Origin: Acidimicrobiaceae bacterium
GTDB lineage: Bacteria; Actinomycetota; Acidimicrobiia; Acidimicrobiales; RAAP-2
Length of the DNA: 55,132 nucleotides
Direction of reading: 5' to 3'
Assembly (NCBI GenBank): GCA_027315005.1
Contig: DAHUZT010000064.1
Location: forward strand, 1-55,132
Part shown: positions 33,202 through 49,167 of the stretch, piece by piece
Position numbering within the stretch: the stretch's first letter is position 1
Layout: the number at the start of each line of letters is the position of its first letter
Program-made: the position numbers and the translations under genes
Notes under the pieces: generated by a model
Told to the model about the DNA's origin: nothing
Databases searched by the model: none
What the model saw: the letters and a program-made list of their open reading frames with translations, nothing else

Positions 33202-34739
33202 AGGCTCACCTCCTGTTCAAGGAGCGGGATTTCGAAGAATCGAGCTCGTTCCGGGTTGACGAAGGACCCGTGCAGGACCTGGAACTGCAGACCCTGCTCG
33301 AAGCGATGGCCGAAGGCGACAAATTCCTCTTTGATACGGCCGGCAAGGTTCTGCTGTCGGGTCTGGACGACCCCGAAGCGATCGAGTTTCGCCAGGCGAT
33401 CCTGCGGGACTGCATCGACCATCCCGACACCGTGAGAGCCCTGTACGACGTGACGCAGGCGGCGTTCGAAGGAAAGCGGTACTTCTTCGGATTCCCATCG
33501 CATCACCCATCGGGAATTCTGAGCCACGCAGTACAGTCGCTCGAACTGTACTTCGAGCAGCTCAAGCACTTGCGACGTATCGCAGATGAGCACGCCGACG
33601 AATTCCAGTCAGAAGGATTCACAGCGCTCATGGAGATGCTGGTTAGGGAACTCGATGATGACTACTTCCGCGTCATCGACTCTCACCTGAGGCAGCTCAG
33701 GTTTCGCGGTGGCCTTCTCTTGAGCGCCGAACTCGGCGTCGCCAACAAGGGAACGGCATACGTGCTGCGTTCCCTGAGCTCACGCAACAGGGGATGGAAG
33801 GCTCGCGTAGGAATCGGTACAGGGCCTTCCTACTCGTTCGAACTGCATCCGAGGGACGAAGCGGGAGCCCGGGCACTCTCGAAGGTCCGAGACCGAGGTA
33901 TCAACCTCGTGGCCAACGCGCTCGCGCAGTCGATGGAGCATGTCCAGAGCTTCTTCGCCATGCTTCGGTTCGAGCTGGCGTTCTACGTGAGCTGCGTCAA
34001 TGTGCACGATCGGCTCACCACCAAGGGTGAGCCGACCTGCATGCCCACCGCCCTGCCTTGCAGCCCACCCGGTCTGTTCGCACGCGACCTCCTGGATGTC
34101 TGCTTGACGCTCACCGTGAACGATCGAGTGGTGGGTAACGACCTCGATACTGAAGGAAAGGCGCTGGTCATGATCACCGGCGCCAACTCGGGAGGGAAGT
34201 CCACGTTCCTTCGCAGCGTCGGTCTCGCACAGTTGATGATGCAGTGCGGCATGTTCGTGGCGGCTACCACCTTCCGAGGAAGCGTCTCCGCAGGCCTCTT
34301 CACCCACTTCATCAGGAAGGAGGACTCGACCATGGTCAGCGGGAAGCTCGACGAGGAGCTGAGCAGGATGAGCGCCATCGCGGACTCGATCACCCCACAC
34401 TGCATGGTGCTCTTCAACGAGTCCTTCTCCGCGACCAACGAACGCGAGGGATCCGAGATCGCCCGGCAGACGATCTGTGCACTTGTCGATTCCGACATCA
34501 GGGTGTTCTTCGTGACCCATCTGTTCGATCTCGCGGAGAGCCTCCGGTTCCGTGCGCTCGAATCAACCCAGTTCCTACGTGCGGAAAGAGACCCCGATGG
34601 CAACCGAAGCTTCAAAGTGGTGCCAGGCGATCCCCTTCCCACCGGATACGGAGACGACCTCTACCGAAGGCTGTTCCAATCTGATGGCCGCACGATGACG
34701 CCGATCGGCTCGGTCAGAGACCCGCCACTTCCTCGATGA
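33198..34739 (+). CDS. MutS-like ATPase B (core and ATPase domains only)
   Basis: A 513-residue partner of the preceding protein, sharing only the overall plan. The helical region spans about 50-290. The ATPase domain has Walker A GANSGGKSTFLRSVGLAQ (328-345), FTHFIRKEDSTMVSGKLDEEL, Walker B HCMVLFNESFSATN with Asn407-Glu408, and the MutS-type His in FFVTHLFDLAE (Thr440-His441). As in partner A, the mismatch-binding domain is missing and Walker B Asp is Asn. Heterodimer formation, as in MutSbeta or MutS4/5, is inference from the ATGA coupling and divergence of the two sequences. Its last 26 bp overlap the end of the convergent GTPase gene. Confidence 0.83.
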   Translation: MKAHLLFKERDFEESSSFRVDEGPVQDLELQTLLEAMAEGDKFLFDTAGKVLLSGLDDPEAIEFRQAILRDCIDHPDTVRALYDVTQAAFEGKRYFFGFPSHHPSGILSHAVQSLELYFEQLKHLRRIADEHADEFQSEGFTALMEMLVRELDDDYFRVIDSHLRQLRFRGGLLLSAELGVANKGTAYVLRSLSSRNRGWKARVGIGTGPSYSFELHPRDEAGARALSKVRDRGINLVANALAQSMEHVQSFFAMLRFELAFYVSCVNVHDRLTTKGEPTCMPTALPCSPPGLFARDLLDVCLTLTVNDRVVGNDLDTEGKALVMITGANSGGKSTFLRSVGLAQLMMQCGMFVAATTFRGSVSAGLFTHFIRKEDSTMVSGKLDEELSRMSAIADSITPHCMVLFNESFSATNEREGSEIARQTICALVDSDIRVFFVTHLFDLAESLRFRALESTQFLRAERDPDGNRSFKVVPGDPLPTGYGDDLYRRLFQSDGRTMTPIGSVRDPPLPR

Positions 34740-36429
34740 TCTCCTTCGAGTCGTCCATGAACCGCCTGCGCTCCTCCCTGAGGTCCACGGCGAGATCGAC
34801 AGCCTCCTTGGCACGTGACGCTGCCGCGGAAATGGAGATCTGCACCTCCTCGAATTCCAGGACCCGTTCGCGAACGAAGGTCCCCTCGGCCGACCTCAGG
34901 CGCTCGGTCAGATCGTAACGGGCCCTGCCCGCGTGCTTGTCGAACTCTTCGACCAACTTTCGTTGCGCTCGCTGCAGACCTCTCCGCCTGACCAGGGCGG
35001 GGGGTAGTGCGATCCGGGCGATTCTACCGATCACAGCATTCGGCCCTTCCACATGGAGGAACAGATAGGAGAACCGTTGACGCTGGCCTGCGACTCCTGA
35101 GACATGCGGCGCAACCAGCTGCACGTCGAAGAGCCGGTCGGCTATCGCCCGAAGCTTCGCGACCCTGTTCTCGATCCGCTGGGCAAACCTCTCGGCAAGA
35201 TCGTTCCATTCATGCTCGGCATGTGATTGGGCCGCGCGCCACACCGGATCAAAGCCTTCGGTGACCAACTGCTCGATGCACTCACGCAATCCCGTGTCCA
35301 GGTGGCGGACCTGCAACTCGGAGGCCATCGCTGCGAGCCTCGGAGCCGCCGCCTGCGCCGCACGGGCTCCGCCTTCAGCCAGCTCACGCCCGATGGATGT
35401 CGACAGCTGACCGACCTCATGGTCGAGCACCATCCTGTCCTCGGCGAGCAACCGGTGACCCTCGATTGCAGCAGATCCGAAGCGATCAAGCCGGTCAGTG
35501 AGGGTTTGGAGATCCATGGCAAGTGCAGCCTCCTCGATCTGCAGGGACGTTGCGAGATCACCGGCGAGACGTCGGAGCTCACCGATCGCCGCCGATCTCC
35601 GGGCGCCATCGAGATCGCTTCGGACGAAGCGATCGAGGTGTTCCCGGAACGAGCGGAACTCCGAGGCGACCTCCGGCGACCGTCCCGGGAGCCGCTCCAG
35701 CGCCGCCTTCGCGCTCACGCAGTACGGCTCGATCGTCGTGCCGAAGATGCGAGAGACTTGTCCGGCTACGAATCGCCTGACCTGATCGAGGTCATGGCGA
35801 GAGAGATGATCCGCCTTGTTGATGACCAAGAACACCTGGGATTCTCGCTCGTGCAGTTGGCGGAGCAGTTCTCGTTCGCTTTCCGACAAAGGGCTGTCCG
35901 CGGACAGGACCACCACTGCGGCGTCTGAGTCGAGTAGAGCATCGTGAGCCGCCGCCGTGTTGTGCTCATGGATCGACGCCACCCCCGGTGTGTCCACCAA
36001 GACGAGACCGCCAACTCCAAATGATGTGTCGACACCGACTTCGACCCGACGCACGCCCAGATGATTGGACGGATTGCCTTCCTCGGTGGCGTACCTCTTG
36101 ATCGCTTCCGGCCCGATGGCGATCTCTCGACCGTCATCGAAGATCACAGCTACGTGTGGCGGACCGATGTGGACCTCGGTCGCGACCGAAGTGAGCGGAA
36201 GCGAGCCTGAGGGGAGTACGGATTTGCCGATCAATGCATTCACGAGTGTCGATTTCCCTCGCTTGAACTCACCCAGTACGGCGATGTGGAACCGTTGGGA
36301 CCTGATCCGTTCAGCCAACCGTTCGGCTCGCTCCGTCAGATGAGCGTCGCATCCCTCCAAGCCGGCAATGCGCCCCACCAACTGCCCGAGCTCTGCCCAT
36401 CGGAGAGCATCCCTTTCACCCCCGTTCAC
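34714..36429 (-). CDS. Dynamin-like GTPase
   Basis: A 571-residue GTPase. G1 is GEFKRGKSTLVNALIG (53-68), the switch region contains LPLTSVATEV, G3 is DTPG (146-149) and G4 is NKAD (204-207). Large size, the FKRGKST P-loop and a long helical tail (about 270-571) rich in Arg, Glu and Ala place it in the bacterial dynamin-like group. A stretch around 470-490 (IGRIARIALPPALVRRRG) is amphipathic or basic and might be a membrane paddle. The start is GTG; an AGGAAAC site lies upstream. It lies 70 nt downstream of enolase on the same strand and overlaps MutS-like B tail to tail. Bacterial dynamins act in membrane repair or phage defence in some species; the role here is unknown. Confidence 0.82.
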   Translation of the reverse strand: MNGGERDALRWAELGQLVGRIAGLEGCDAHLTERAERLAERIRSQRFHIAVLGEFKRGKSTLVNALIGKSVLPSGSLPLTSVATEVHIGPPHVAVIFDDGREIAIGPEAIKRYATEEGNPSNHLGVRRVEVGVDTSFGVGGLVLVDTPGVASIHEHNTAAAHDALLDSDAAVVVLSADSPLSESERELLRQLHERESQVFLVINKADHLSRHDLDQVRRFVAGQVSRIFGTTIEPYCVSAKAALERLPGRSPEVASEFRSFREHLDRFVRSDLDGARRSAAIGELRRLAGDLATSLQIEEAALAMDLQTLTDRLDRFGSAAIEGHRLLAEDRMVLDHEVGQLSTSIGRELAEGGARAAQAAAPRLAAMASELQVRHLDTGLRECIEQLVTEGFDPVWRAAQSHAEHEWNDLAERFAQRIENRVAKLRAIADRLFDVQLVAPHVSGVAGQRQRFSYLFLHVEGPNAVIGRIARIALPPALVRRRGLQRAQRKLVEEFDKHAGRARYDLTERLRSAEGTFVRERVLEFEEVQISISAAASRAKEAVDLAVDLREERRRFMDDSKEIIEEVAGL

Positions 36430-36499: not shown

Positions 36500-37774
36500 T
36501 CATCGCCGCAGTGGGATGCCGAACTCGATGTCGGCCTCCTTGGCTTCAATGGCCAGCAACCGGTTGTACTTGACCACCCGTTCACCCCGTGCCGGGGCAC
36601 CGGACTTGAACTGCCCGCATCCGGTCGCGACGGCAAGATCGGCGATGAACGTGTCCGCAGTCTCACCTGATCGGTGCGACACCATGACACCGAAGCCGGC
36701 ATCCAGGCAGAGATCCACCGCTTCGAGTGTCTCGGTGACTGTTCCCACCTGGTTCGGCTTGATCAGGGCAGCTGTGCCGATACGGTGGTCGATCGCGTCG
36801 GCGATGATGGACGGATTGGTCACCAGGTTGTCGTCACCTACCAGCTGAAGGTGGGCTCCGAGGCGCTCGGTCAAAAGCATCCAACCTTCCCGGTCGTCCT
36901 CCCCCACGCCGTCCTCGACCGACGAGATGGGATAGCGGTCGACCAGGTACTGGATATGCTCGACGAGTTCGACCGAGTCGAACTGCGACCCGTTGACGAC
37001 GTAGTGACCGTCGGCCGAACGGAACTGGGAGGCCGCGAGGTCGAGCGCGATGGTCACTCCTCCCGTTCCCGTTTCGTAGCCGGCCTGTTCGATCGATTCG
37101 ACCAGCAGGTCCAGCACGTCCTCTGGAGCCTGCAGGGCAGGTGCGAAACCGCCCTCGTCACCGAGGGCAGTCGTAAAGCCCAACTTGTCGAGCCGGCCAC
37201 GCAATACCCCGTAGATCTCGGCACCTGCCCGGAGGGCTTCAGCAAAGTTCGGCGCGCCTAGAGGTGCGATCATGAACTCCTGAAAATCCAGTCGGTTCTT
37301 TGCGTGGACGCCACCATTCACCACGTTGAAGTACGGCACCGGCATCCGCAAGGAAGCACCCGGTCCGGCCAGCCACCGATAGAGGGGAACGCCCGCGTGA
37401 TCGGCGAGTGCCCGGGCAAAGGCCATCGACACCCCGACGATGGCGTTGGCACCGAGCCGAGCCTTGTCCTCAGTTCCGTCCAGCGAACGCAGGGACGAGT
37501 CGAGGTGGGCCTGCGACTCCCACATCTCCCCCACCAGCCGTGAGGCAATTTCTCCATTGACGGCCTCCACCACCGCCAACACACCGGCACCTCCGTAGCG
37601 GGACGGATCATCATCGCGACGCTCGACCGCCTCCTTGCTGCCCGTCGAGGCCCCCGACGGAACCGCAGCACGACCGGCGAAGGTTCCTGCGATCTCGACG
37701 TGAACCTCCAGAGTCGGTCTTCCCCTCGAATCGAGGATTTCGAGCGCCGATACGTTGGTGATCTCCAGGTTCAT
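36500..37774 (-). CDS. eno: Enolase
   Basis: Glycolytic enolase (2-phosphoglycerate to phosphoenolpyruvate). At 424 residues it has RAAVPSGASTGSKEAVE, the catalytic Glu pair in DFQEFMIAPLGA and LGDEGGFAPAL, metal ligands in IALDLAAS, SSVEDGVGEDD and LVGDDNLVTN, Lys in ALIKPNQVGTVTETLEA, and His in VMVSHRSGETADTFIADLAV. All active-site residues are kept. AAGGAA precedes the ATG. Its place downstream of a stress protein and a hydrogenase-like operon, not with gap-pgk-tpi or ftsB, is odd, so it may be a second, specialised copy; the rest of the genome is not visible to decide. Confidence 0.95.
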   Translation of the reverse strand: MNLEITNVSALEILDSRGRPTLEVHVEIAGTFAGRAAVPSGASTGSKEAVERRDDDPSRYGGAGVLAVVEAVNGEIASRLVGEMWESQAHLDSSLRSLDGTEDKARLGANAIVGVSMAFARALADHAGVPLYRWLAGPGASLRMPVPYFNVVNGGVHAKNRLDFQEFMIAPLGAPNFAEALRAGAEIYGVLRGRLDKLGFTTALGDEGGFAPALQAPEDVLDLLVESIEQAGYETGTGGVTIALDLAASQFRSADGHYVVNGSQFDSVELVEHIQYLVDRYPISSVEDGVGEDDREGWMLLTERLGAHLQLVGDDNLVTNPSIIADAIDHRIGTAALIKPNQVGTVTETLEAVDLCLDAGFGVMVSHRSGETADTFIADLAVATGCGQFKSGAPARGERVVKYNRLLAIEAKEADIEFGIPLRR

Positions 37775-37966: not shown

Positions 37967-38425
37967 TCACACCACCAGCACTGGACAAGGATGGCGGCGA
38001 AGGAGCTGCTCGAGGGAGCGGCCGATCCCACGATGGATCATCTGCTCACGTCCGTGCGCACCGACGACAACCAGGTCGAAACCGTGCACGTCTACATGTT
38101 CGGCGATCGCCTTGGCAGGATCGTCGGCGAACACGATATGGGTGGAGACCTCCCATCGGTTCTGAGCCGAGTTGGCCATCTCCGAGAGTCCCCGCGAGAG
38201 ATTCTCCCTTTCGGCCTCCTCTGCGCTCGCACGCTCCGCGGCGGTCTCGGCATGAGCCGGAGGGCGGATCACGAGCAGGGCGTGTACGTCACCACCGAGG
38301 TCTGCTGCCAGGGCGATGGCCACGCGCAGCGCACGTCGGGCCTCCGCCGAGCCGTCAAAACCCACGAGCAGTCGACGGAACACACCTCCCGGCCCCTCGA
38401 CTGTCCCGGCATGCTCGGGCACCAT
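37967..38425 (-). CDS. Universal stress protein, UspA family
   Basis: A 152-residue Usp-fold protein. It opens with FRRLLVGFDGSAEARRALRVA (one strand-loop-helix unit), and the ATP-loop candidate is VVVGAHGREQMIHRGIGRSLEQLL, close to G-x2-G-x9-G-S, with a C-terminal HPCPVLVV strand; it is therefore probably of the nucleotide-binding subgroup. AGAGGAG lies 6 nt before the ATG. It follows the last gene of the hydrogenase-like operon by 12 nt, so it is likely cotranscribed. Usp genes next to membrane redox operons are common in low-oxygen or starvation regulons. Confidence 0.9.
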   Translation of the reverse strand: MVPEHAGTVEGPGGVFRRLLVGFDGSAEARRALRVAIALAADLGGDVHALLVIRPPAHAETAAERASAEEAERENLSRGLSEMANSAQNRWEVSTHIVFADDPAKAIAEHVDVHGFDLVVVGAHGREQMIHRGIGRSLEQLLRRHPCPVLVV

Positions 38426-38437
38426 GTCAGGCTCCTC

Positions 38438-40462
38438 TCATCGAAGTGCTGCGGTCAGGGCCAGGGACGCCAGCAGTGCAACCAGCATGTATGCCACGTA
38501 GGCGTTCAGGTTCCCCGACTGCAGACGCTTGGCAGCACGGGCCACTCCGAGGGCTCCCACCCGAACGGGCCGGTAGATATAGGTCTCGATCGGCTCGACC
38601 ACTTGGGTGTGCACCTCGATGTGGCCCGCACGGTCCTGGGCGGCGTCGGGAGCCGATACGAAGTCGACCGCCCTTCTCGTCCCCAGGACGTTGCCGAGGA
38701 CGTGCCGTAATGGATTGGCGAAACCGAATGCCGAGTAACTCGATCGACCGCGCACCCCTGAGGTGGCCGAATGCCAAGACGGGACCCGTCGGATCCGAAG
38801 CAGACGGCCCCGAGACAAGATGAGCGCGCCGACGAACACCAAGCCAAAGGCCATCGGCATTGCCACCCACAACCAAGATGGTGACAGAATCGAGAACCCG
38901 CGGAACACCGGTTGCAGTACCCATGGTGACTTGAGGGCACGTTCGGTGATTCCTCGTGGTACGAGAGAATTCAGACCCCTGGCTATGTAGCGGAACTCCC
39001 ACGGGCTCACCGCTGCAAGCCCCAGACAGCCGATGGCAAGCAGGCTCATCCCTACCTTGCCGGACAACCCCGTTTCGGCTCGTCGCTCGACCTGGCCGGC
39101 AGGCTTCCCCAAGAAGGTCATGCCAAGCACCCGTAGGAACGCCAGCGCGGCCAGGCCGGTGGTCAGGGCCACCAGAGCACCCGCACCGGCCAGCGCCAGG
39201 CGAAGGGCCAGTCCTGGGACACGGAACTGCTGCATGAGCGCCTCGAGGATGAACCACTCTGACACGAACCCGATCGTCGGTGGGAGGCCGGCCAGGGTGA
39301 CCGCTCCGACACCGAAGGTGGCACCGCTCCATCGCAGCCGGCGCCCGATGCCCCGGAGGGCATCAAGGTCATCCGTTCCTACTGCGGCTTCGACGTTGGC
39401 CGACGCAACGAAGAGGGCCGACTTGGCAATAGCGTGGGCCACGGTCTGCAATGTGGCGGCCAGCAGCCCCACGGCGACCAGTGGTTCGGAATGGATGACC
39501 GTCCCGGTCAGTGCCACTCCATACGCGGTGACGATCAACCCCGAGTTCTCTATGCTCGAATAGGCGATGATCCGGTTCAATCGGGCCTGGACCCCGGCAA
39601 AGGTGATGCCAAGCAGCGCGGTGATGCCCCCGACCAGCAGCACTCCGATGACCAGCCATACCGGAGGCCGACCGAGCACACCGAGGAAGCGCCACAGGCC
39701 ATAGACCCCGACATTTGCTGCGATGCCGGCCATGGCCGCCCGGGCCGGCCCCGGTGCGGCCGGATAACCGACGGGGATCCACACCTGCAGGGGTACCAGC
39801 CCGACCTTCGCGCCGAACCCCACCACCACCAGCACCCAGGCCATGTCGTGCACAGCGCCCGGTCCAACCGCGTGCCAGCTGGCAATCGTCAGGCTTCCGG
39901 TCCGCCCCGCGAGGAGGAGGAACCCGAAGAGCAGTGCGGCCCCGCTCAGCTTGCCCATCCCGGCTGTCGCCCATGCCGCGCCGGCTTGTCGTTGATCGGA
40001 CCGGGTGACGGAGGTAAGTACATAGAAGGAAACCGTGAGCAATTCCCAGGAAAAGAGGAACAAGAATGCATCCGCCGCGGTCACTATGACGGCGGTCGAT
40101 GCCAGCAACAGGAGGTAGCCCGTGGCGATTCCTCGGCGATGGGGATGCCCATTGGACCGGCTCCACGATACGAAGCACGACGAGACGGCCACGGCAACGG
40201 AGAACAGCAGAGTCAGGAAGAGGCCGGACAGTGCATCGATGTGTAATCCACCGTGACCCACCCCGAACAGCATGCTCAGGTCAACGCTCACAGCGGTCGT
40301 GGTGGTCGCATGGAGACCGAGAACGACGAGGCACCCGCTGCCGACCAAGCCGAACAGGTAGGGAACGGGACGAATCAGCCGCGCGTCGATACCGAGGACC
40401 AGGTCGATGAGCGCTCCTGCGGCGAAACACGCCAGACCGGCGGCAAAGAGCGAACCGCTCAT
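38438..40462 (-). CDS. Hydrogenase-4/Mrp-type antiporter-like membrane subunit (HyfB/HycC-like)
   Basis: A 674-residue NuoL/MrpA-family membrane protein with about 15 helices. The proton-channel residues are present: Glu140 in FLFSWELLTVSFYVL and Lys219 in VGFGAKVGLVPLQVWIPVGYPAAPG. Other family marks are the IIAYSSIENSG segment, AHAIAKSALFVASANVE, and LAGLPPTIGFVSEW. The C-terminal ~100 residues form a partly hydrophilic tail with one last helix. It overlaps the small subunit stop as ATGA. This is the largest of the two antiporter-type subunits in the operon, so ion pumping is probably retained even though the redox centre is not. Confidence 0.9.
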   Translation of the reverse strand: MSGSLFAAGLACFAAGALIDLVLGIDARLIRPVPYLFGLVGSGCLVVLGLHATTTTAVSVDLSMLFGVGHGGLHIDALSGLFLTLLFSVAVAVSSCFVSWSRSNGHPHRRGIATGYLLLLASTAVIVTAADAFLFLFSWELLTVSFYVLTSVTRSDQRQAGAAWATAGMGKLSGAALLFGFLLLAGRTGSLTIASWHAVGPGAVHDMAWVLVVVGFGAKVGLVPLQVWIPVGYPAAPGPARAAMAGIAANVGVYGLWRFLGVLGRPPVWLVIGVLLVGGITALLGITFAGVQARLNRIIAYSSIENSGLIVTAYGVALTGTVIHSEPLVAVGLLAATLQTVAHAIAKSALFVASANVEAAVGTDDLDALRGIGRRLRWSGATFGVGAVTLAGLPPTIGFVSEWFILEALMQQFRVPGLALRLALAGAGALVALTTGLAALAFLRVLGMTFLGKPAGQVERRAETGLSGKVGMSLLAIGCLGLAAVSPWEFRYIARGLNSLVPRGITERALKSPWVLQPVFRGFSILSPSWLWVAMPMAFGLVFVGALILSRGRLLRIRRVPSWHSATSGVRGRSSYSAFGFANPLRHVLGNVLGTRRAVDFVSAPDAAQDRAGHIEVHTQVVEPIETYIYRPVRVGALGVARAAKRLQSGNLNAYVAYMLVALLASLALTAALR

Positions 40463-41328
40463 GGGGCTGCCTCGTGATGTCGGACGTTCGGGATGACCGG
40501 TCCATTTCCCGTGCGTCCCGCATCAGGGGCATCGCGACCCGATCGACCGCCGTCAGCCGGGGGCAGTAATCCGACGGCCACCAGTATTCCGTGGAGAATA
40601 CCGAAAGGGCTCGGCGGGGATCCGGGGACATGCACATCCACCGGAAGCGTTCGGCCGATCCCACCGCGCGTTGCGTACCCCTCACCGATGAGGCCCCCGC
40701 TGATGGCGTCTGCGCCGACCGCGATCACCACCTTGGGGACGGGCATCACATCGTAGGTTTCGCGCAACGGGCCCAGCATCCCGGCTGATCCCGCGCCGGT
40801 GACCAGCAACAGGTCGGCATGCTTGGGACTGGCGGTGAAGAAGACTCCGAGCCGCTGGACATCGTAGACCGGACTGAGCAATGCGGCGATCTCCCACTCT
40901 TCGGAACCATCCGATCCAGCGTCGACGTGCCGGATGTGCACGGATCGTCGTAAGGACTTCACCCGGCCGCCGAGCTCCTGGCGAGCCCGTTCGAGTGACT
41001 CACGATCCTCGTTGTCGGGAGGGACGACCAGCGCGCGTCGTGCGATTACCGACGTCTCGAAGTCGGATTGGAAGCGAAACACCTGAGGGTAGAGCTCCGT
41101 ACAGCGTCCGCACAGGATGCACCGACCTCTGTCGAGATCCGGACGACCTTCGAGCACCTTGATGGCACCGGTCGGGCAGGCCTGGGTCGCCGGTTCCAGG
41201 TTCACATCGTCAGCGACGTCACGGGCGACAGCGACAGACCCCCGGAATCCTGGCCCGTATCCGTCGGGATGCCGTGGGTACCGGGTAGTGACGATGCCAT
41301 TCCGCATACCTCTCGGAATCCAGGGCAT
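40459..41328 (-). CDS. Ferredoxin-NuoB/HycG-like fusion lacking all N2-cluster cysteines
   Basis: A 289-residue fusion. Residues 30-95 form a ferredoxin-like domain with Cys51 (ACPTGA) and Cys70, Cys73, Cys76 (CILCGRC), enough for one 4Fe-4S cluster; the partner motif has lost its cysteines and the usual fourth Cys is Tyr80. Residues 135-250 follow HycG/NuoB closely (YDVQRLGVFFTASPKHADLLLV; PVDVHVPGSPPSP), but the four cluster ligands are replaced: CxxC by Asp140 and Glu143, the third Cys by Asp207 and the fourth by Ser237. The N2-type proximal cluster therefore cannot be built. The C-terminal 35 residues are polar. It overlaps both neighbours, so it is an expressed operon member rather than a relic. 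Confidence 0.85.
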   Translation of the reverse strand: MPWIPRGMRNGIVTTRYPRHPDGYGPGFRGSVAVARDVADDVNLEPATQACPTGAIKVLEGRPDLDRGRCILCGRCTELYPQVFRFQSDFETSVIARRALVVPPDNEDRESLERARQELGGRVKSLRRSVHIRHVDAGSDGSEEWEIAALLSPVYDVQRLGVFFTASPKHADLLLVTGAGSAGMLGPLRETYDVMPVPKVVIAVGADAISGGLIGEGYATRGGIGRTLPVDVHVPGSPPSPFGILHGILVAVGLLPPADGGRSGRDAPDAGRTGNGPVIPNVRHHEAAP

Positions 41329-42824
41329 CAGCCGGCCACCCCGGCGATCGAGAGCCCGAAGCTCGCTTCGATGAAGGCGACGTCGGTGAGAACGTCCTTC
41401 GGGAAGGCCAAGGGAAAGAGGGCGAGGTTGTGGAACGAGGCCGATCGTGGCTTCACCCGAACCAGTCGCCCCTCGCTGAGTTCCACCAGGTAGAGCACCT
41501 CACCCTGGGGGGCTTCAGACCAACCGAGTTCCTCACCGCTGATCGGCTCCACCGGTGTGCTCCACATCGCTCGCTCTGGCTCGCTCAACTCTTCGAGCCC
41601 ATCGACGCACTGGCGAATGAGGTGGAACGAGCTCCAGATCTCGTCCACACGCACCCGTTGACGAGCAAGGGCGTCGCCGGCGTCTCTCTCCTCGAAGATC
41701 TGGTGGCCGAGGCGGCGATATCCGTCATAGGGACGTGCAACACGGACGTCGTTCGTCTGACCAGAGCCGCGACCGACCGGACCCAGTGATCCGTACCGGC
41801 TTGCGATGTCGGCAGGGACAACTCCCGTGCCCCTGAGTCGGTCAACGAAGGACGGCGTAGCCAGCAGCAACCGCATATCGGAGCGGAGGTCGGACTCCAA
41901 GGACCCCAGAACATCGAGGAGGGCACTGCTGCCCAGGCGGGGTGGCCCTGACGCTCCTCCTGGTATCACCACACCACGACCGAACCGGCTCCCGCACAGC
42001 TGGGCGCGCAACCGCTGGACACGTTCCTTGTGAAGTGTCAATCGTGCAAATGCGACCGCCTGACCCGCCCCTTCGGTGTGTCGGATCGTGGAGTCCAGGT
42101 GGTTTGCCACCCGTTCGAGCTCGGCGTGCAGCACCCGGAGCAAGCCTGCACGCAGCGGGACCTCAGTCCCCGCCATCCGCTCGATCGCTCCACAGTAGGC
42201 GATGGCATGAGCAACCGAGGCCACGCCTTCGCAACGCTCGGCCAGAAGGACCCCGTCGTCGACGGTCATTCCCTCGAAGCGAGCCTCGACTCCACGATGC
42301 TTGTAGAAGATTCGAGTACGGAGGTGTGGAATATCCTCACCCGGGGTCTCCACCAGGTACTCGACCGACTCGAACACTCCGGATCGAACCGGTCCGTACG
42401 GAATGGTGAACACTCCCTCGCCGCGCAGATGGATGTCGAGCGGAGTGTGATCGGGCTCGACCGGAGCGCGTACGTGGCCTGTGCCAGGCCGCGGTCGCTC
42501 CGCATCATCGGAGAACGGGAAGACCAGGGGGTCAGGCCGGGGATGGTCGACCGGCTCGAGGCCGAACAGGTCGCGTAGCTCTCGCTCGTACCACGAAGCC
42601 GACGGTATGCGCCGGGCGAGTGACGGGAATTCATGCGTTCCAGCAGGAAGAAGGACCCTCTGGGTGGTGAGCTTCTCCTTGTCGGCCATGACTGCCGTGA
42701 GCCGGACTCCGCCTTCACAGGCGGATCCGAACAATCCACAAAATCGCGCTCCGAGCCCAACACGTCGAGCAACTCCATCGACGAATGATCGGGTCATCGA
42801 GTCGTCGAACGCGCGTTCCGTCAT
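41328..42824 (-). CDS. HycE/NuoCD-like large subunit lacking both NiFe CxxC motifs
   Basis: A 498-residue fusion of a NuoC-like domain (about 1-120, ending in PSASWYERELRDLFGLEP) and a NuoD/NiFe large-subunit-like domain. The family is clear from FESVEYLVETPGEDIPHLRTRIFYKHRGVE (around 151-180, in two blocks) and RVLHAELERVANHL. Where HycE has E-R-V-C-G-I-C, this protein has Glu-Arg-Cys-Glu-Gly-Val-Ala (196-202), and the C-terminal D-P-C-x2-C is replaced by Gly-Leu-Ser-Ile-Ala-Gly near 490-495, at the very end. No NiFe site can form. The protein ends where hydrogenase precursors would carry the cleaved tail. The ATG overlaps the preceding gene, and the stop overlaps the small-subunit start as TGATG. 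Confidence 0.87.
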   Translation of the reverse strand: MTERAFDDSMTRSFVDGVARRVGLGARFCGLFGSACEGGVRLTAVMADKEKLTTQRVLLPAGTHEFPSLARRIPSASWYERELRDLFGLEPVDHPRPDPLVFPFSDDAERPRPGTGHVRAPVEPDHTPLDIHLRGEGVFTIPYGPVRSGVFESVEYLVETPGEDIPHLRTRIFYKHRGVEARFEGMTVDDGVLLAERCEGVASVAHAIAYCGAIERMAGTEVPLRAGLLRVLHAELERVANHLDSTIRHTEGAGQAVAFARLTLHKERVQRLRAQLCGSRFGRGVVIPGGASGPPRLGSSALLDVLGSLESDLRSDMRLLLATPSFVDRLRGTGVVPADIASRYGSLGPVGRGSGQTNDVRVARPYDGYRRLGHQIFEERDAGDALARQRVRVDEIWSSFHLIRQCVDGLEELSEPERAMWSTPVEPISGEELGWSEAPQGEVLYLVELSEGRLVRVKPRSASFHNLALFPLAFPKDVLTDVAFIEASFGLSIAGVAG

Positions 42825-44314
42825 CGTTTGGGAACTCCCAGCTCGCGGGCAGCATGATCGAGGAGTTGGCTCAGTTGTGACGGCAGGTGCACCCCGAGGA
42901 TGGCCAAGGCCACCAGCCCGATGACCATGGAGACCACGATCCAGGGGCTGACCTCGCCCTTGGAGAGCGGATGCGAGCCGGCGGACCCAGCCGGGAGAGC
43001 TGAAACATCGGGACTGAGCATGATCTGGGTCGTGGACCACGAGAGCCCGAAGAAGGCAACGGTGACGAGGACGACGAGCGCCGCTGCCACCGTGTCTCGT
43101 GAATCAGACAGGCCACCCGACACGATCAGGAACTCGCTGCGGAAGATCCCGAAAGGTGGCATTGCCGAAAGTGCCAGCACGGCTGCCACGAGCATCGGGC
43201 CACTCCAGGGCAGTGCGCCGATTCCACCACGGATCCGGCCCAGGTCCTTGGTCCCGAACTTGCGAACTACCGAACCGGCTCCGAAGAACGCAGTCCCTTT
43301 CGCCGCGGCGTGTGCGAGCACATGGAGGAGAACACCGACCACGGCGACGGGAGCACCGAAGGACATGCCGATGGCCAGGATCCCCATGTGCTCCACACTC
43401 GAATATGCGAGCAATCGTTTGAGATCCCGCTGGCTCAGCAGGTACAGCGCGGCCAGAAGGAGCGACGCGATGCCGAAGATGAGGAGGGTGTTGCGGGGGA
43501 ACGTGGGACCGATCGTGCGAACGGCGATCTGGAAATAGCGCAGGATGGCGTAGAAGCTGATAGCCAGAAGGGAACCTGAAAGGAGAGCCGAGATCGGGGT
43601 GGGCGCCTCGGAATGGGCGTCGGGTAACCAGGTGTGTACGGGGAAGAGCCCCATCTTGGTGCCGTAGCCGAGGACGGCAAGCACAAAGGCCAGGCGGACC
43701 ACGTCAGGAGAGAAGTGGGAAGCTCCGGAAAGAAGCTTTCCGTAGGACAGGTTGTAGGCCGAGCCGAATACGGTCGTCCCGGCGTAGTACATGATGATGG
43801 TGGCGAACAGGGCGATACCGAGACCGAGCGATGCGATGAGCACATACTTCCAAGAGGCCTCGGTAGCGCCGTCGGTGTCGTCGATAGCCACGAGCAGCGC
43901 CGATACGACTGTTGTGATCTCGATGGCCACCCACAGCAGAGCCAGGCCGTTGACGAGGGGCGCGGCAGCCATCGACCAGCAGAAGAGGTTGAGACCGGCG
44001 TAGAACCGGCGACCGTAACGCGTTCCTGCTTTGCCCTGACCGAGGTGCAGGTAGCCGGCGGCGAAGATGGCGGTGGTGGCGTAGAGAAAGGAGGTCGCCA
44101 CCAAGAAGACCATCGACAGCGAATCGATGCGCAGCAAGCTGCCCTCCCTCAGCTGTGCGTGGGTCACCACCTCTGGGATGAGAGTCAGGGCCAAGCCGAA
44201 CGTCACCACTCCGGAGATCACGGTGATCACCTTTGCAAGTCGCACAGGGGAGAAGAAGGTGATCACGGCGACCGCGAGCGGGAGCACGATGATGACCACG
44301 AGCAGTGCTGGCAC
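42821..44314 (-). CDS. HyfF/NuoN-like proton-translocating membrane subunit
   Basis: A 497-residue protein of the NuoL/M/N (Hyf F) family with about 14 helices. Conserved pump residues are visible: Glu132 in LLWVAIEITTVVSALLV, Lys220 and His227 in YGTKMGLFPVHTWLPDAHSEAPTP (in two blocks), and LLAYSSVEHMG further on. It starts at a GTG two bases after the preceding stop and overlaps the large subunit start as ATGA. With the HyfB-like gene this gives two antiporter-type modules. Confidence 0.9.
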   Translation of the reverse strand: MPALLVVIIVLPLAVAVITFFSPVRLAKVITVISGVVTFGLALTLIPEVVTHAQLREGSLLRIDSLSMVFLVATSFLYATTAIFAAGYLHLGQGKAGTRYGRRFYAGLNLFCWSMAAAPLVNGLALLWVAIEITTVVSALLVAIDDTDGATEASWKYVLIASLGLGIALFATIIMYYAGTTVFGSAYNLSYGKLLSGASHFSPDVVRLAFVLAVLGYGTKMGLFPVHTWLPDAHSEAPTPISALLSGSLLAISFYAILRYFQIAVRTIGPTFPRNTLLIFGIASLLLAALYLLSQRDLKRLLAYSSVEHMGILAIGMSFGAPVAVVGVLLHVLAHAAAKGTAFFGAGSVVRKFGTKDLGRIRGGIGALPWSGPMLVAAVLALSAMPPFGIFRSEFLIVSGGLSDSRDTVAAALVVLVTVAFFGLSWSTTQIMLSPDVSALPAGSAGSHPLSKGEVSPWIVVSMVIGLVALAILGVHLPSQLSQLLDHAARELGVPKR

Positions 44315-44316
44315 GT

Positions 44317-44985
44317 TCAGCCTTTCAGCCGATCGAGGTCTTCGGTCGACAAGGAATTCGCTCTGCCGTGGTGGACCCGCATGATGACACCGAAGACGAC
44401 CACTGCCACCAGGAGGTCGAACAAGAAAGCCACCTCGACGACCAGGGGAAGACCGGCGGCGACTACCAGGCTGGCTACCGACACGCCATTCTCGAGCGAG
44501 AAGAAGCCGATGGCCTGGGAGACGACATCGGCGCGCAGGATGATGAGTACGAACGCGACCAGGACGACGGCAGCGGCGATAGCAAGGGCGGAAGTGGGAA
44601 GTGCCACCGAATGAACGTGCAGCGAGCCCACGGCGAAGAAGGCGAATGCGGCGACGGCGATGGCAACGAGGACCATGCTGGCGACACCGAGGATCGAGCT
44701 TTCGGCGAGGTCGACGTCCGCATCGGGTAGCAGACGCATCACCAGGCCCGGGACGATTACCACCTTGAGCACGAACGTCAACAATGCAAGGACGTAGAGC
44801 TCATCGATATGACGGGATGTGGCAACGAATATGGCAAGCCCTGTGACCACCAGTGACTGAAATGCATAGAGACGGACCTGGGACCGCAGGAGAGGTGCTC
44901 GTAGCATGGCGAACTCGGTGAGCAGCACCAGAATGGCCATCACGTCGGCCACACCTGCGTCCGTGGAGGGAACGTTCAATGTCAT
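44317..44985 (-). CDS. HyfE/NuoK-like membrane subunit
   Basis: A 222-residue membrane protein with about seven helices in the arrangement of HyfE, an extended NuoK-like subunit of hydrogenase-4. The FFSLENGVSVASLVVAAGLPL segment (around residues 163-183) carries the conserved Glu of the NuoK/MrpC family in SLENG. The C-terminal tail is short and charged. It overlaps the HycD-like gene as ATGA and is followed by the HyfF-like gene after two bases. Confidence 0.85.
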   Translation of the reverse strand: MTLNVPSTDAGVADVMAILVLLTEFAMLRAPLLRSQVRLYAFQSLVVTGLAIFVATSRHIDELYVLALLTFVLKVVIVPGLVMRLLPDADVDLAESSILGVASMVLVAIAVAAFAFFAVGSLHVHSVALPTSALAIAAAVVLVAFVLIILRADVVSQAIGFFSLENGVSVASLVVAAGLPLVVEVAFLFDLLVAVVVFGVIMRVHHGRANSLSTEDLDRLKG

Positions 44986-45947
44986 CCACCTCCGGCATAG
45001 AAGACGAGAACGGCAAGTACAGCGAGCAAGAAGGCCGCGGCGATGAATTCGGTGATCTTGAACAGGCGAAGCTTGGAGAACAGGTTGTCGATGACGGCGA
45101 ACACGAGGCCGAGGAGCATCGCCTTGCCGAGCAGTGCAGGAATGGCCAACACCACATGTCCGAGGGAACCCGAAGCAGCCAATCCCCACGGAGCCACGAA
45201 GACGTTGATGAGGATTGTGTAGAGGATGAGCTGCTTCATCGCCGCACCCCACTTCAAGAGTGCGAGAGGTGATCCCGAATGCTCGAGTGTGCGGGCTTCA
45301 TCGATCATCCCGAACTCGAGCGTCCCCGAATGTGTCTCGACCGGAATGCGACCGGTGTCGACGAGGACCACGAGGAAGAATGCGATGGCGACCAGCACGT
45401 GGCCGGGTCGGACTATCTCTGAGGCGGACGAGCGGACGGTCGCCGACAGGGCATAGGGGAGGTCGGTGCTCGTGATCAGCGCAACGACGAAGACGACGAA
45501 AAGAATCGTGGGTTCGATGAGCGCACCGAAGGTCATGGCCCGACTCCCACCCATTTGGGCGTAGGGCGCTCCGGTTTCGGTCCCTGCGAGCGACACCGAG
45601 AAGCCTGCGAGAGCCAGGATGAACCCACCTCCCAGAATGTCCCCCATGTAACCCAGCGGCAGCCCATAGGTAGTGAGTACCGGGATGAGCATGGGCACGA
45701 TCAGGTAGCAACCGAAGGCCACCACCGGGCCAATCATGAACACCCAGCTGGACTGTTCGGGGACCACGGTCTCCTTGCAGAAGAGCTTGGCCAGGTCGTA
45801 GTAGGGCTGGAGAATCCGCGGCCCCCGTCGGCCCTGGAGCCTCCCCTCGACATGGGCGATGACACCGCTCACAAGGGGAGCGCCGGCCACGATCGTCAAG
45901 ACCTGCAGTGCCTGTACGCCTTCAGGCGGTATCCCACTGGGACCCAC
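44982..45947 (-). CDS. HycD/HyfC (NuoH-like) membrane subunit
   Basis: A 321-residue NuoH-family membrane subunit, the anchor of the hydrogenase-like arm. It shows GRRGPRILQPYYDLAKLFCKE (in part), DTGRIPVETHSGTLEFGMIDEAR and a C-terminal LRLFKITEFIAAAFLLAVLAV helix, all typical of HycD/HyfC and NuoH; the acidic residues in VETH and FGMIDEAR correspond to the E-channel. A GTG with GGAGG five bases upstream was taken as start; another GTG 12 nt earlier is possible. It is the first gene of the operon. Confidence 0.88.
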   Translation of the reverse strand: MGPSGIPPEGVQALQVLTIVAGAPLVSGVIAHVEGRLQGRRGPRILQPYYDLAKLFCKETVVPEQSSWVFMIGPVVAFGCYLIVPMLIPVLTTYGLPLGYMGDILGGGFILALAGFSVSLAGTETGAPYAQMGGSRAMTFGALIEPTILFVVFVVALITSTDLPYALSATVRSSASEIVRPGHVLVAIAFFLVVLVDTGRIPVETHSGTLEFGMIDEARTLEHSGSPLALLKWGAAMKQLILYTILINVFVAPWGLAASGSLGHVVLAIPALLGKAMLLGLVFAVIDNLFSKLRLFKITEFIAAAFLLAVLAVLVFYAGGG

Positions 45948-46396
45948 AGCGACCTCCACGGAACCGAATCCACGTAGAGGCCATCAGCCCATCAGGGCGG
46001 TTTGGGCTCCTGCCCCCCGGGGCTTCATCCGGGACGGAAGGCACGCTACCCGAAAATTGCTGGCGCGCATCGCATCCTTGCCGGTGGCTGCGACCTGTTA
46101 CCGATCGCGCCGCTGCGGACGGTGTCTTCCTCGTCCAGCTTCCTCGCGCGTCCGGTTAGCATGCGCTTGGCGATGAAGTTCGCTGAGGACGCCTACCGGG
46201 GCTGATGACTCCTGTGCACGAAAGTCTGGAGACAGGAGGTTCGCCGAGTGATCCGAATGCGAGGGGCCCGAATGCGAGGGGCCCGAATGCGAGTCCGCCG
46301 AGTGGTTCGGCGGCAGGTCCGTCAGACCGGGATGCTCCCCGTAGGGTACTGCCATGATCGGCATCGAGTCGGTACTGACGTGCACCCGTCGGGCCG
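45948..46396. other. Regulatory gap between hydrogenase-like operon and phosphatase
   Basis: About 450 bp. On the minus strand a possible short ORF of 28 codons (46070 down to 45984, AAGGA upstream) precedes the HycD-like gene, and TAGCGT at about 46052 might be a -10 element. On the plus strand TAGGGT at 46342-46347 points to a transcript starting near 46354, 43 nt before the phosphatase GTG. No supported gene. Confidence 0.35.
46253..46293. repeat. 15-bp tandem repeat (2.7 copies)
   Basis: Two identical copies of CCGAATGCGAGGGGC plus CCGAATGCGAG. Located in the gap between the two divergent genes, far from either start. Could be a protein-binding array or simple slippage. Confidence 0.9.
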
Positions 46397-47053
46397 GTGA
46401 CCCGCATCTACCTGGTCCGACACGGTCGGACCGCGTTGAACGCAGCGGGGGTGCTCCGGGGCCACCTTGACCCTGAGCTCGATGCAGTAGGGCTCAACCA
46501 GGCATCGGCGCTGGGTGAAGTGCTCGGTCGGCTCGAACTACGCCTGGTCGTCTCTAGTCCGTTGCAGCGGGCGGTCGAGACGGCCAGTGCGGTGGCCTGC
46601 CGGGCAGGCCTCGAGGTGGAAACCGATCGACGACTCATCGATCGCGACTACGGAGCCTGGGCAGGCCAACCTCGCGAATTGCTCATCACCCGATTCGGGT
46701 CCGTGAATGACGCACCCGGCGTTGAATCGGAAGATGTCGTGCTGATTCGAGCCATGGATGCTCTCGATGACGCACGCCGGCGGGCGACCGGTGGGGATGC
46801 CGTGGTGGTGAGCCACGATGCCGTGAACACCGTGCTACTGACCACCATCGACGAACGTTTGGGAGACAGCACGACGCTCGTCCAGGACACCGGCTGTTTC
46901 AACGTCCTCGAATATCGCGTTCACAGCTGGTCGGTGCTCAGTGTCAACAACGCACCGCCGGGCCACAACTCCCCCGGTCCCCTGGGAGGCGCGGACGAGT
47001 CATCATCACCACGCATCACGCAATCGAACCCGGAGGACTTCCGCCCCGGATGA
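46397..47053 (+). CDS. Histidine phosphatase (phosphoglycerate mutase-like)
   Basis: A 218-residue branch-1 histidine phosphatase. The catalytic motif is YLVRHGRTALN with the phosphohistidine His9, followed by LVVSSPLQRAVETA, the acid loop DYGAWAGQP and the second His in VVVSHDAVNTVLL. The final 40 residues are a Pro/Ser-rich polar tail. The frame closes immediately upstream of the GTG, so this is the only sensible start, though no ribosome binding site is clear. Substrate unknown; many such proteins act on sugar phosphates or cobalamin precursors. Confidence 0.88.
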   Translation: MTRIYLVRHGRTALNAAGVLRGHLDPELDAVGLNQASALGEVLGRLELRLVVSSPLQRAVETASAVACRAGLEVETDRRLIDRDYGAWAGQPRELLITRFGSVNDAPGVESEDVVLIRAMDALDDARRRATGGDAVVVSHDAVNTVLLTTIDERLGDSTTLVQDTGCFNVLEYRVHSWSVLSVNNAPPGHNSPGPLGGADESSSPRITQSNPEDFRPG

Positions 47054-47289: not shown

Positions 47290-48690
47290 TCAGTCCCAGA
47301 GTCGCCGCGTGGCCGGCATCCCGCTCAGACCCTCTGCCGAGGGTCTGATGCCGAGCACCTGATGGATCGACAGACCACCATCATCGAAGCCGTTGGCCGA
47401 CGCCGCCATGTATACATGCCAAATACGCGCCCTGCCCGCACCCACACAGTCGACGGCTTCGTTCCAGTGTGCCCGCAAATTCTCGACCCAGGTATGAAGT
47501 GTCTTCGAATAGTGTTCTCGCATCGACTCCACATCACGAACCTCGAATCCGGCCCGTTGCATTGCAAGCACGACCTCACCCACGTCGATCAGTTCACCGT
47601 CGGGGAAGACATATCGCCCCATGAAGCTGCGCCGGCCGATCTTCGATCCTCCGGGAGTGGAGATGGCGTGGTTGAGAAGGCGCCCTCCCGAATTGAGCAA
47701 CCCGTAAAGCATCTCGAAATACTCCGAGATACGCGAGGCTCCAACATGCTCGAACATCCCAATCGACGAGATAGCGTCGAAGCGTTCGTCGCAGAGCTCG
47801 CGATAATCGGCCAAGCGAATCTCCACTCGGTCAGCGACACCGGCTTCGACCACGCGTCGTCGAGCCAGAGTCACCTGCTCCTGGCTCAAGGTGATGCCAA
47901 CCACTCGGGCACCGTGTTGTAGGGCGGCGTGCAGGGCCATCGACCCCCACCCACACCCGACGTCAAGGAGTGTCGCGCCGGGTTGCCTGTCGAGGCCGAG
48001 CTTGCGACACACAAGTTCGTGCTTGGCCTTCTGCGCATCTTCGAGGCTGGACGAGTCGTCCACAAATCGGGCACACGAGTAGGTCATCGACGGACCGAGT
48101 ATCAGACGATAGAAGTCATTGCCCACGTCGTAGTGGTGCGAAATGGCACGAGCATCCTGGTTCATGGAGTGCGGGCGCCAGGACGGACGAACCTCTTCCA
48201 GGGGCGGATGGGGGGGACGATTCAGAAGGCCGAGCTGACGAACCGCTGCGGCGAGTTTGGGCAGCATCCGAACACCCAACCGACTGAGATCATGGGACGC
48301 CTCTTCGTGAAGGACTCGCAGAACGGAGAACGCGTCTCCTTCGATTTCGAGGTCCCCGGCCACAAAGGCCCGACCGACACCAAGCTCTCCTGGCGCCCAC
48401 GCGATCCTGCGTATCGCATTTTCGGAGACGACCCTGACAATCCCGGGCCCATCGGTCGGCCCAAGTGAGCTGCCATCCCAAAAAACGAAGCGTACCGGCA
48501 CTTCGGACCCGAACAAGAGGGTGACCAACGGTTGGAGGACTGACGCCACGTTGTCCTTGATCGCGACTGCAATACCCTGCTGGTGGTCAGCGGCACCCGT
48601 CGCCAGGTAAGACCCATCGCTCCCAGAAGTCGCTCTGTTGGCTCCAACGCCCTTTGCTCGCTCTGACGATGTTTCGGTACTGGTGCTCAT
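47290..48690 (-). CDS. cfa: Cyclopropane-fatty-acyl-phospholipid synthase
   Basis: SAM-dependent enzyme that methylenates unsaturated acyl chains of membrane phospholipids. The 466-residue length and an N-terminal lipid-binding domain (about 40-165) are as in bacterial Cfa. ISHHYDVGNDFYRLILGPSMTYSCARF is present (around 188-214), the SAM motif is ATLLDVGCGWGSMALHAA, and later motifs are GMFEHVGASRISEYFE and GRYVFPDGELIDVGEV. GGAGGGG lies 6 nt before the ATG. Like many Cfa genes it may be induced by stress or stationary phase; it converges with the phosphatase gene over about 235 bp without a recognisable terminator. Confidence 0.93.
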   Translation of the reverse strand: MSTSTETSSERAKGVGANRATSGSDGSYLATGAADHQQGIAVAIKDNVASVLQPLVTLLFGSEVPVRFVFWDGSSLGPTDGPGIVRVVSENAIRRIAWAPGELGVGRAFVAGDLEIEGDAFSVLRVLHEEASHDLSRLGVRMLPKLAAAVRQLGLLNRPPHPPLEEVRPSWRPHSMNQDARAISHHYDVGNDFYRLILGPSMTYSCARFVDDSSSLEDAQKAKHELVCRKLGLDRQPGATLLDVGCGWGSMALHAALQHGARVVGITLSQEQVTLARRRVVEAGVADRVEIRLADYRELCDERFDAISSIGMFEHVGASRISEYFEMLYGLLNSGGRLLNHAISTPGGSKIGRRSFMGRYVFPDGELIDVGEVVLAMQRAGFEVRDVESMREHYSKTLHTWVENLRAHWNEAVDCVGAGRARIWHVYMAASANGFDDGGLSIHQVLGIRPSAEGLSGMPATRRLWD

Positions 48691-49167
48691 TGGCTTCCCC
48701 TCCACTTGGGGTGCGGCGTCACCCCTGCGGTGATCGCCGGGTAGGAACCATCAGCTCGATAGGCACACTCGGCTGGCTTCGCCAGCTCCGGTGGGATCCA
48801 TATCCCATGGAGCTAAGACTAGCGAGCTGAGGCCATGATGCGTCGCAGACCGGACTCGTGAACGCGCCATCGCGACGGAGTCAGATTCGCCGCGGCCCAA
48901 GCCGGGCTGGAGCCGTTCCGCTCCGAACCAGAGGTACACCACACGGAGACGTTCGTGTGTCGCGATCCAAATCCTCTACGTTCTCGGGGACAGGAATCAT
49001 GACCGCAACCATCCCTCCTCGGGGCAGCCATGGAGTCATGGGGCGAGTACCGTCCGCTGGTCAACTCTCGAGCGGAGGGCGTCGAACCCTCGTTGATCTC
49101 GTGGTGTGGTCGGCACGACGATGAGCGCCACCAGATCGTCCGGTCGTCCGGTCGGGACACGATCGGG
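48691..49167. other. Gap upstream of cfa
   Basis: About 480 bp without a supported gene. It includes a perfect hairpin GCTGGCTTCGCCAGC (stem closed by a TTCG loop) at 48772-48786, with no T tract, so a terminator is uncertain. Frames on both strands are short or lack starts. Confidence 0.35.

Follow-up and report, generated by a model that had tools for sequence, protein, structure and literature searches.

Why should a fluoride riboswitch stand before the genes of a hydrogenase-like membrane complex that has lost its hydrogenase chemistry? The question is raised by contig DAHUZT010000064.1 of an Acidimicrobiaceae genome (assembly GCA_027315005.1; 3.06 Mb in 130 contigs, 93% complete), of which we analysed 55,132 nucleotides, here called the window. 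Six overlapping open reading frames on its minus strand (38438..45947; Table 1) encode HycD-, HyfE-, HyfF-, HycE-, HycF-HycG- and HyfB-like products. Two open questions meet at this locus, namely what role energy-converting-hydrogenase-related (Ehr) complexes play once hydrogenase chemistry has been lost, and why fluoride riboswitches control genes labelled 'formate hydrogenlyase'. Judged by its sequence, this is an Ehr-like complex belonging to the fluoride regulon. It has probably been mislabelled as a hydrogenase, and we consider it rather probable, from ligand loss, an intact ion path and genomic context, that it serves fluoride defence as an ion translocator that is induced by fluoride, coupled to protons and redox-silent.

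The operon products match the families NADHdh, hydrogenase-4 membrane subunit, Proton_antipo_M (twice), Complex1_49kDa with 30kDa, and Oxidored_q6. The NCBIfam matches agree with those to Pfam, although those shown all lie below the curated cut-offs, and the HyfE-like subunit is the sole one of the six products to lack a Pfam match. Translation of hycD may start at a GTG at 45947, which is preceded by GGAGG, or at a GTG at 45959. For comparison we used 80 ortholog loci from named records, with near-copies retained; these loci average 15.9 kb and many are truncated. The identical six-gene order, by best hits, is present in 61 of the 80, and the remainder are truncated or cross-assigned.

In an alignment that includes E. 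coli HycE and HyfG, the large subunit reads EGVA and SIAG where HycE has CGIC and CYSC, and the two NiFe-binding CxxC motifs of group 4 [NiFe] hydrogenases and formate hydrogen lyase (FHL) are thus both missing. The replacements are themselves conserved: E199 is Glu in 80/80 orthologs, S492 is Ser in 74/80 (Cys in two, Pro in two, Ile in one, and one gap), and G495 is Gly in 79/80 with one gap. Across the 79 orthologs shown, these four positions never hold more than a single Cys, which is seen in L078, L110 and L140. Because the replaced ligands are conserved in about 80 orthologs, neither frameshifting nor decay accounts for their absence. A frameshift or pseudogene is ruled out by the open frames together with this conservation, and a hydrogenase with hidden cysteines by the alignment with E. 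coli HycE, HyfG and HycG. As read from these alignments, replacement of the NiFe and N2 ligands is not noise but fixed and under selection.

In the small-subunit gene an N-terminal HycF-type ferredoxin domain is fused to a C-terminal NuoB/HycG domain, and the latter has SDGSEE, GADAISG and PGSPP where E. coli HycG has GCNGCE, GACGNSG and PGCPP. Among the 79 orthologs with a small subunit there is not a single Cys at the four N2 positions, with gaps in 3 to 5 of them. D140 is Asp in 76/79 (three gaps) and D207 is Asp or Glu in 75/79 (four gaps), while E143 (Glu 60, Asp 14, Val 1, Ala 1, three gaps) and S237 (Ser 67, Ala 5, Asn 2, five gaps) are less strict. Likewise, in a 19-sequence alignment D140, E144, E146 and D207 are invariant and positions 143 and 237 vary. 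The complex consequently has neither the proximal (N2-type) [4Fe-4S] cluster of group 4 hydrogenases and FHL nor, its N2 ligands being absent, the N2 cluster and quinone reduction module of respiratory complex I; a separate NuoD-like gene is present elsewhere in the genome, on contig C8. In E. coli FHL two HycF clusters and one HycG cluster lead to the NiFe site in steps of less than 14 Å, according to the available part of PMC9474812. Here the HycG relay step is missing, and the lost ligands and the resulting distance suggest that the former active site is out of reach for electrons. One iron-sulfur site does persist: C51, C70, C73 and C76 are Cys in 79, 79, 78 and 78 of 79 orthologs, both misses being gaps. 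By the usual ligand pattern of ferredoxins, C51, from the first ferredoxin motif, and C70, C73 and C76, from the second, would form one [4Fe-4S] site. In the relatives L155, L156, L161 and L162 a single-site C...CxxCxxC ferredoxin is a separate gene.

The sequence-only reading of this stretch, made without database searches, had described a six-gene overlapping operon of these subunit types, and the open reading frames and their families agree with it. It had named E199, A202, S492 and G495 in place of the NiFe ligands and D140, E143, D207 and S237 in place of those of N2, which the alignments with HycE and HycG bear out, and it had allowed that a frameshift might restore the cysteines, of which the alignment and the open frames give no sign. 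Its statement that all metal-ligand motifs of the NiFe and N2 sites are replaced holds for those two sites and overlooks the retained [4Fe-4S] site.

The membrane arm shows the opposite pattern to the lost redox sites. HyfF E132, K220, K339 and E394 are invariant in 70/70 orthologs and HyfB E140, K219, K347 and E402 in 67/67, and the two sets line up with key residues of the complex I antiporter subunits NuoL/M/N; HycD E208, E215 and E226 are invariant in 65 orthologs and align with key residues of NuoH. Key residues of E. coli NuoL/M/N and NuoH are given in their usual numbering. Not every charge is matched: A251 and N250 stand at the aligned positions of the K265-type lysine of NuoM, and NuoH E157 and E216 align with G145 and S211. 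E. coli HycC has lost its antiporter Lys (Leu208; PMC9474812, available part), whereas HyfB here keeps K219, and the complex therefore looks better equipped for ion transport than a true FHL.

The second line of evidence is regulatory. The window contains three matches to the fluoride riboswitch model RF01734 (Table 1), one of them in the 5′ leader of hycD, and a whole-genome search with stricter filters recovers exactly three fluoride riboswitches, all of them in the window. The two matches on the hycD side were found at a permissive Rfam threshold. The hycD-leader aptamer has one pseudoknot mismatch by a regular-expression test, and its match stops about 10 bases before the GGAGG that precedes the hycD start, a spacing that would fit translational control.

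The association extends across the orthologs. A covariance model was built from 16 aptamers, three of them from the window, and used to search the 80 ortholog loci; the model covers the first stem only, the second being poorly aligned in the seed, and its E-values are rough. Testable loci, 65 in all, are those whose hycD is 250 aa or longer and is preceded by 150 bases or more; a locus was scored positive for a same-strand match starting no more than 350 bases 5′ of hycD, and a match could overlap the assumed start by as many as 30 bases. A match precedes hycD in 59/65 at E≤1 and in 47/65 at E≤0.01. Among the six misses, L066 and L067 show a strong match farther out, at about 0.8 kb upstream, and L099 and L138 are matched by the regular expression; neither the covariance model nor the regular expression finds a fluoride riboswitch in L069 or L121. 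The regular expression, which is strict, matches 35/65 leaders, each with a complementary pseudoknot, and none in one mononucleotide shuffle. Tried on four ortholog loci (E≤0.1), the Rfam model itself recovers the aptamer before hycD in two, L064 (27.3 bits) and L068 (26.9 bits), both times below gathering.

The association recurs on plasmids. Plasmid islands of Mycobacterium branderi and Burkholderia multivorans hold all six genes together with Rfam aptamers above gathering, in the former before a NUDIX gene and hycD (40.9 bits) and in the latter at the complex (54.9 bits), and an Alicyclobacillus plasmid has an Rfam aptamer (47.4 bits) before a solitary large-subunit gene. This Alicyclobacillus HycE-like gene (L195:10001-11323) stands alone, with only a short HycD-like fragment match besides within 21 kb. 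In L155 (genome G195, contig C39) the genome has seven fluoride riboswitch matches, of which six cluster in a stretch of about 18 kb that surrounds the complex, and two HyfB-like genes lie in tandem there.

Genomes that carry the complex, here called bearers, show how it is distributed. A fluoride riboswitch match lies 5′ of the complex on the same strand in 14/19 bearers; the five without are G035, G046 (contig end cuts the operon), G060, G092 and G098 (genome without a match). The maturation gene hypD, the only hyp gene searched for, was not found in the window's own genome; it is present in 1/19 bearers and absent from 18/19. Among the window's relatives the complex often occurs without CrcB: in a sample of 100 genomes, the window's own and 99 relatives, CrcB is present in 5/18 bearers and 70/82 other genomes (Fisher p 3.1e-6, kinship not corrected), and at completeness of at least 90% in 3/13 and 55/61, respectively. 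In this count the bearers are carriers of the N2-less complex, and G095, which has another fluoride-type complex and CrcB, falls among the other genomes. The window's own genus fits this pattern (one bearer without CrcB, 11/13 others with it), as does genus g8 (three bearers without, one other with), but genus g3 does not.

The phylum also contains another sort of NiFe-less complex, here type B, which provides a useful contrast. Nine of ten type-B loci have the order HycG-HyfB-HycD-HyfE-HyfF-HycE, which would match the hyc cluster of Mycobacterium tuberculosis; the remaining one, L150, has the type-B motif, a third gene order and a fused ferredoxin. What type B shares with the present complex, and with Ehr complexes generally, is a NiFe-less group-4-like large subunit, antiporter-like membrane subunits, and HycD and HyfE. 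It differs in its large-subunit motif (NKSFNLSYAGNDL-type, as opposed to EASFGLSIAG-type here), in lacking the ferredoxin fusion except in L150, and in its regulation, since no fluoride riboswitch was found at gathering in any of eight type-B loci. Across 21 genomes with a type-B-like complex there is no fluoride match within 10 kb on the same contig, the nearest lying about 14 kb away (G006); for some of these genomes the assignment rests solely on an identity of 34-38%, and the test is limited by draft contigs. Identity of the window's complex with the Mycobacterium-type hyc cluster is ruled out by the other gene order and motifs of type B, the lack of a riboswitch found there, and its separate position in the tree. 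The N2 cysteines are kept in eight of the ten type-B loci; in the HycG-like genes of L153 and L154 they have been lost independently (STNAC, GDDAID, PGDPP), without a fluoride riboswitch.

The tree is a quick maximum-likelihood estimate from 66 large-subunit rows, in which L056/L157, L039/L150 and L043/L153 were entered twice; the branches of L195, L160 and L002 are long and the search was short. The fluoride-type complexes form one group (Shimodaira-Hasegawa-like approximate likelihood ratio test 93, not starred), type B a separate one (95), and the N2-less subclade that includes the window has support of 100. Outside that subclade, the fluoride-type members L149, L151, L152, L161, L162 and L194 have four N2 cysteines, L044 has three, and L155 and L156 have an altered set. 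Within the fluoride-type group no riboswitch was found in the L160 genome or on the L161 contig, and L044 was not searched. Since N2-keeping forms lie within the one fluoride-type group and outside the N2-less subclade, loss of N2 inside the fluoride lineage is suggested. By this phylogeny the NiFe site was probably lost first and N2 later, within a lineage already tied to fluoride, and the distribution suggests that the switch and the membrane arm stayed while N2 was lost. In an actinobacterial group of HycE-like genes (L056, L059, L060 and L061; L056 and L059 are contained in the longer stretches L157 and L158) the C-terminal CYAC is kept and the first motif is altered, to CAAC in three of the four and to CGAD in L061; a partial NiFe site or another metal site is possible there.

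Among the known systems close to it, E. coli FHL and hydrogenases 3 and 4 (Hyc and Hyf) have the same subunit families; from these the present complex differs in its HycF-HycG fusion, in having no NiFe site, no proximal cluster and one HycF cluster instead of two, and in that no hypD was found. Mrp cation/proton antiporters are not known to have a HycE/HycG arm. The window's complex does have a HycE and HycFG arm and so is not a member of the Mrp family, and the likeness is one of working only. Both features expected of an Ehr complex, antiporter-like membrane subunits and a group-4-related large subunit without NiFe ligands, are present. Ehr complexes have been described as lacking the Ni- and Fe-coordinating residues, with redox-coupled ion transport suspected (PMC6349859, available part).

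In the mechanism that we favour, the leader riboswitch would sense fluoride, as a Mg-F complex, and raise expression of the six genes, by analogy with the known riboswitch. In the membrane arm (HycD, HyfE, HyfF and HyfB) the ion-carrying charged residues are visibly kept. The NiFe and N2 ligands are plainly lost, and by our distance argument electrons could presumably no longer get to the former active site, so that the complex would most likely work as an Mrp-like proton-coupled antiporter powered by an ion gradient. The HycE/HycFG arm may serve as a scaffold or as a gate, with the one [4Fe-4S] cluster in a structural or a sensing role. The task would be to cope with the H+ and F- that enter as HF, as the riboswitch, the island neighbours and the CrcB pattern suggest. 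Such a translocator could take a cation/H+ or an F-/H+ form, both of which fit the present sequence evidence. The earlier reading had proposed that ion translocation is kept and H2 chemistry is not, citing the antiporter pairs Glu132/Lys220 and Glu140/Lys219. Those pairs prove invariant, and the proposal gains from the Ehr-like composition, the intact ion path and the hypD result (it had called for a check of the hyp maturation genes, of which hypD alone was searched for), but it was made with the riboswitch before the operon, the fluoride-resistance neighbourhood and the [4Fe-4S] site unseen. Between its two ideas, a different redox partner or conformationally driven ion conduction, the evidence favours non-redox conduction, to which a role in fluoride defence is now added.

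Several observations weigh against this interpretation. Both riboswitch matches on the hycD side score below the Rfam gathering cut-off, with an imperfect pseudoknot, and in two (L075 and L085) of the four ortholog loci tried the Rfam model gives no match in the hycD leader, though the L075 leader aptamer is matched by the built covariance model and the regular expression. The near-invariant [4Fe-4S] site suggests some redox or structural use. A CLC-family gene is present in 19/19 bearers, and a fluoride-type CLC among them is possible; the only CLC of the window's own genome has its closest matches in ClcA/ClcB models and in ClcA chains of solved structure. Finally, in a second sample CrcB is present in 22/50 bearers (of 80 named bearers): in all ten actinomycetes with a name at genus or order level, of which eight are isolates and two metagenome-assembled genomes (4.7-10.7 Mb), and in 12/40 others; this sample partly overlaps the first (e.g. 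L065 and G053 are the same genome). The complex is thus not an obligatory substitute for CrcB, and the idea of its strict replacement of CrcB is weakened.

These points bear directly on the alternatives. The same co-occurrence with CrcB, together with ion-path residues that match cation/H+ antiporter-like subunits, favours one version of the best explanation in which the complex serves fluoride-induced proton and cation homeostasis only, by Na+/H+ or K+/H+ exchange, and F- leaves otherwise. We regard this as quite possible, even though the tendency of the complex to occur without CrcB among the window's relatives would be unexpected of a mere helper. In the most far-reaching reading the complex would be an anion exporter, the first in the complex I superfamily, that couples F- export to H+ and can stand in for CrcB, and the conserved acidic pocket that replaces N2 (D140, E144 and D207) would act as a Mg-F or metal sensor gating the membrane arm; we think this distinctly unlikely. 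CrcB is passive and depends on a membrane potential that is negative inside. In acidophiles this potential is often missing or reversed, so that an H+-coupled machine would be needed there.

A different use for the retained cluster is as the entry point of a redox-driven pump, as suspected for other Ehr complexes, in which a donor reduces the remaining [4Fe-4S] site and an acceptor near the HycF/HycG face drives H+ translocation. The near-complete conservation of its ligands (Cys in 78-79/79), the upkeep of the ferredoxin as a separate gene in L155, L156, L161 and L162, and the four N2 cysteines of several fluoride-type members outside the N2-less subclade all fit such a pump. It nonetheless seems unlikely, as the N2 and NiFe ligands are absent throughout the sampled subclade, the HycG proximal cluster is the very step missing from a relay whose spacings in FHL are below 14 Å (PMC9474812, available part), and no ferredoxin domain was detected in L160, although that branch is long and no riboswitch was found in its genome. 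The published account of riboswitch-linked FHL, a shift to fermentation under fluoride (review PMC11139923, available part), has homology to Hyc and Hyf in its favour, but for this complex it is hardly credible: all four NiFe and all four N2 cysteines are replaced, hypD was found neither in its own genome nor in 18/19 bearers, and a Pfam scan of 14 proteins of the window, to which the search for a formate dehydrogenase was confined, shows none. That the genes are merely the relic of a decaying hydrogenase would account for the lost catalytic ligands, yet it is extremely improbable given that the listed large-subunit matches of the window's clade have no stops, the six-gene order is widely shared, the membrane-arm residues are invariant, and acidic residues at the old N2 site and the riboswitch are conserved.

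The regulatory association itself is shared with the fluoride-riboswitch 'formate hydrogen lyase' genes, for which Baker 2012 is the primary paper. It is mentioned in PMC8004769, whereas the available part of PMC7266159, on the crcB motif, does not mention formate or hydrogen lyase, and the accounts in PMC11139923 and PMC8004769, in the parts available, do not state that catalytic ligands are missing. Nor did a literature search, outside which most subscription literature lies, return a report that fluoride-linked complexes lack them. If our interpretation is correct, members of this clade should not be annotated as NADH dehydrogenase, hydrogenase or formate hydrogenlyase, and the fluoride regulon has to be read anew where they are concerned; the superfamily would also gain a natural case of a complex I membrane arm running without a redox chain.

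Table 1. Genes and fluoride riboswitches of the window's putative fluoride island (positions in the window; gathering score of RF01734, 34 bits).
Feature	Position	Strand	Basis and occurrence
Fluoride riboswitch before MutS-like pair	31295..31374	+	RF01734, 40.4 bits, above gathering
MutS-domain-V ATPase, first of pair	31414..33201	+	PF00488; 25/80 ortholog loci
MutS-domain-V ATPase, second of pair	33198..34739	+	PF00488; 23/80 ortholog loci
Dynamin-family GTPase	34714..36429	-	PF00350; 22/80 ortholog loci, 0/10 type-B loci
Enolase	36500..37774	-	PF00113/PF03952; 9/80 ortholog loci
Universal stress protein	37967..38425	-	PF00582; 31/80 ortholog loci
HyfB-like antiporter subunit	38438..40462	-	PF00361, E 1.4e-38
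HycF-HycG fusion, 289 aa	40459..41328	-	PF13370/PF13459 (N-terminal), PF01058 (C-terminal)
HycE-like large subunit, 30K and 49K domains, NiFe ligands replaced	41328..42824	-	Pfam and alignment
HyfF-like antiporter subunit	42821..44314	-	PF00361, E 3.4e-49
HyfE-like membrane subunit, 222 aa	44317..44985	-	NCBIfam hydrogenase 4 membrane subunit, 90.7 bits (cut-off 136)
HycD/NuoH-like membrane subunit	44982..45947	-	PF00146, E 2.8e-33
Fluoride riboswitch directly 5′ of hycD	45968..46039	-	RF01734, 26.6 bits, E 2.6e-5, below gathering
Fluoride riboswitch before histidine-phosphatase gene, divergent from that of hycD	46160..46221	+	RF01734, 28.8 bits, E 5.1e-6, below gathering
Histidine phosphatase family protein	46397..47053	+	PF00300; 11/80 ortholog loci
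Cyclopropane-fatty-acid synthase family protein (tentative island member)	47290..48705	-	PF02353; 1/80 ortholog loci

The genes around the operon recur to varying extents in the ortholog loci (Table 1), of which 16/80 also contain a CrcB gene. Enolase is a fluoride-sensitive enzyme that is often placed in fluoride operons (PMC11139923, available part). A histidine phosphatase is also annotated in the M. branderi island, and a cyclopropane-fatty-acid synthase (cfa) gene is present in that of Burkholderia. At E≤1e-10 none of the two MutS-like proteins, the dynamin-family GTPase, the universal stress protein, the histidine phosphatase, enolase or CrcB is found in any of the ten type-B loci, which average 17.2 kb; there is a weak universal stress protein match (24%) in L154.

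Pairs of MutS-domain-V ATPases under a fluoride riboswitch, like that at 31414-34739 on the plus strand, are seen again in islands from different phyla, where a dynamin-like GTPase often accompanies them. Elsewhere in the window there are two riboswitches of other classes, both on the minus strand: a c-di-GMP-I-GGC riboswitch at 12313-12387 (71 bits) and a cobalamin riboswitch match at 29366-29451 (33.9 bits).

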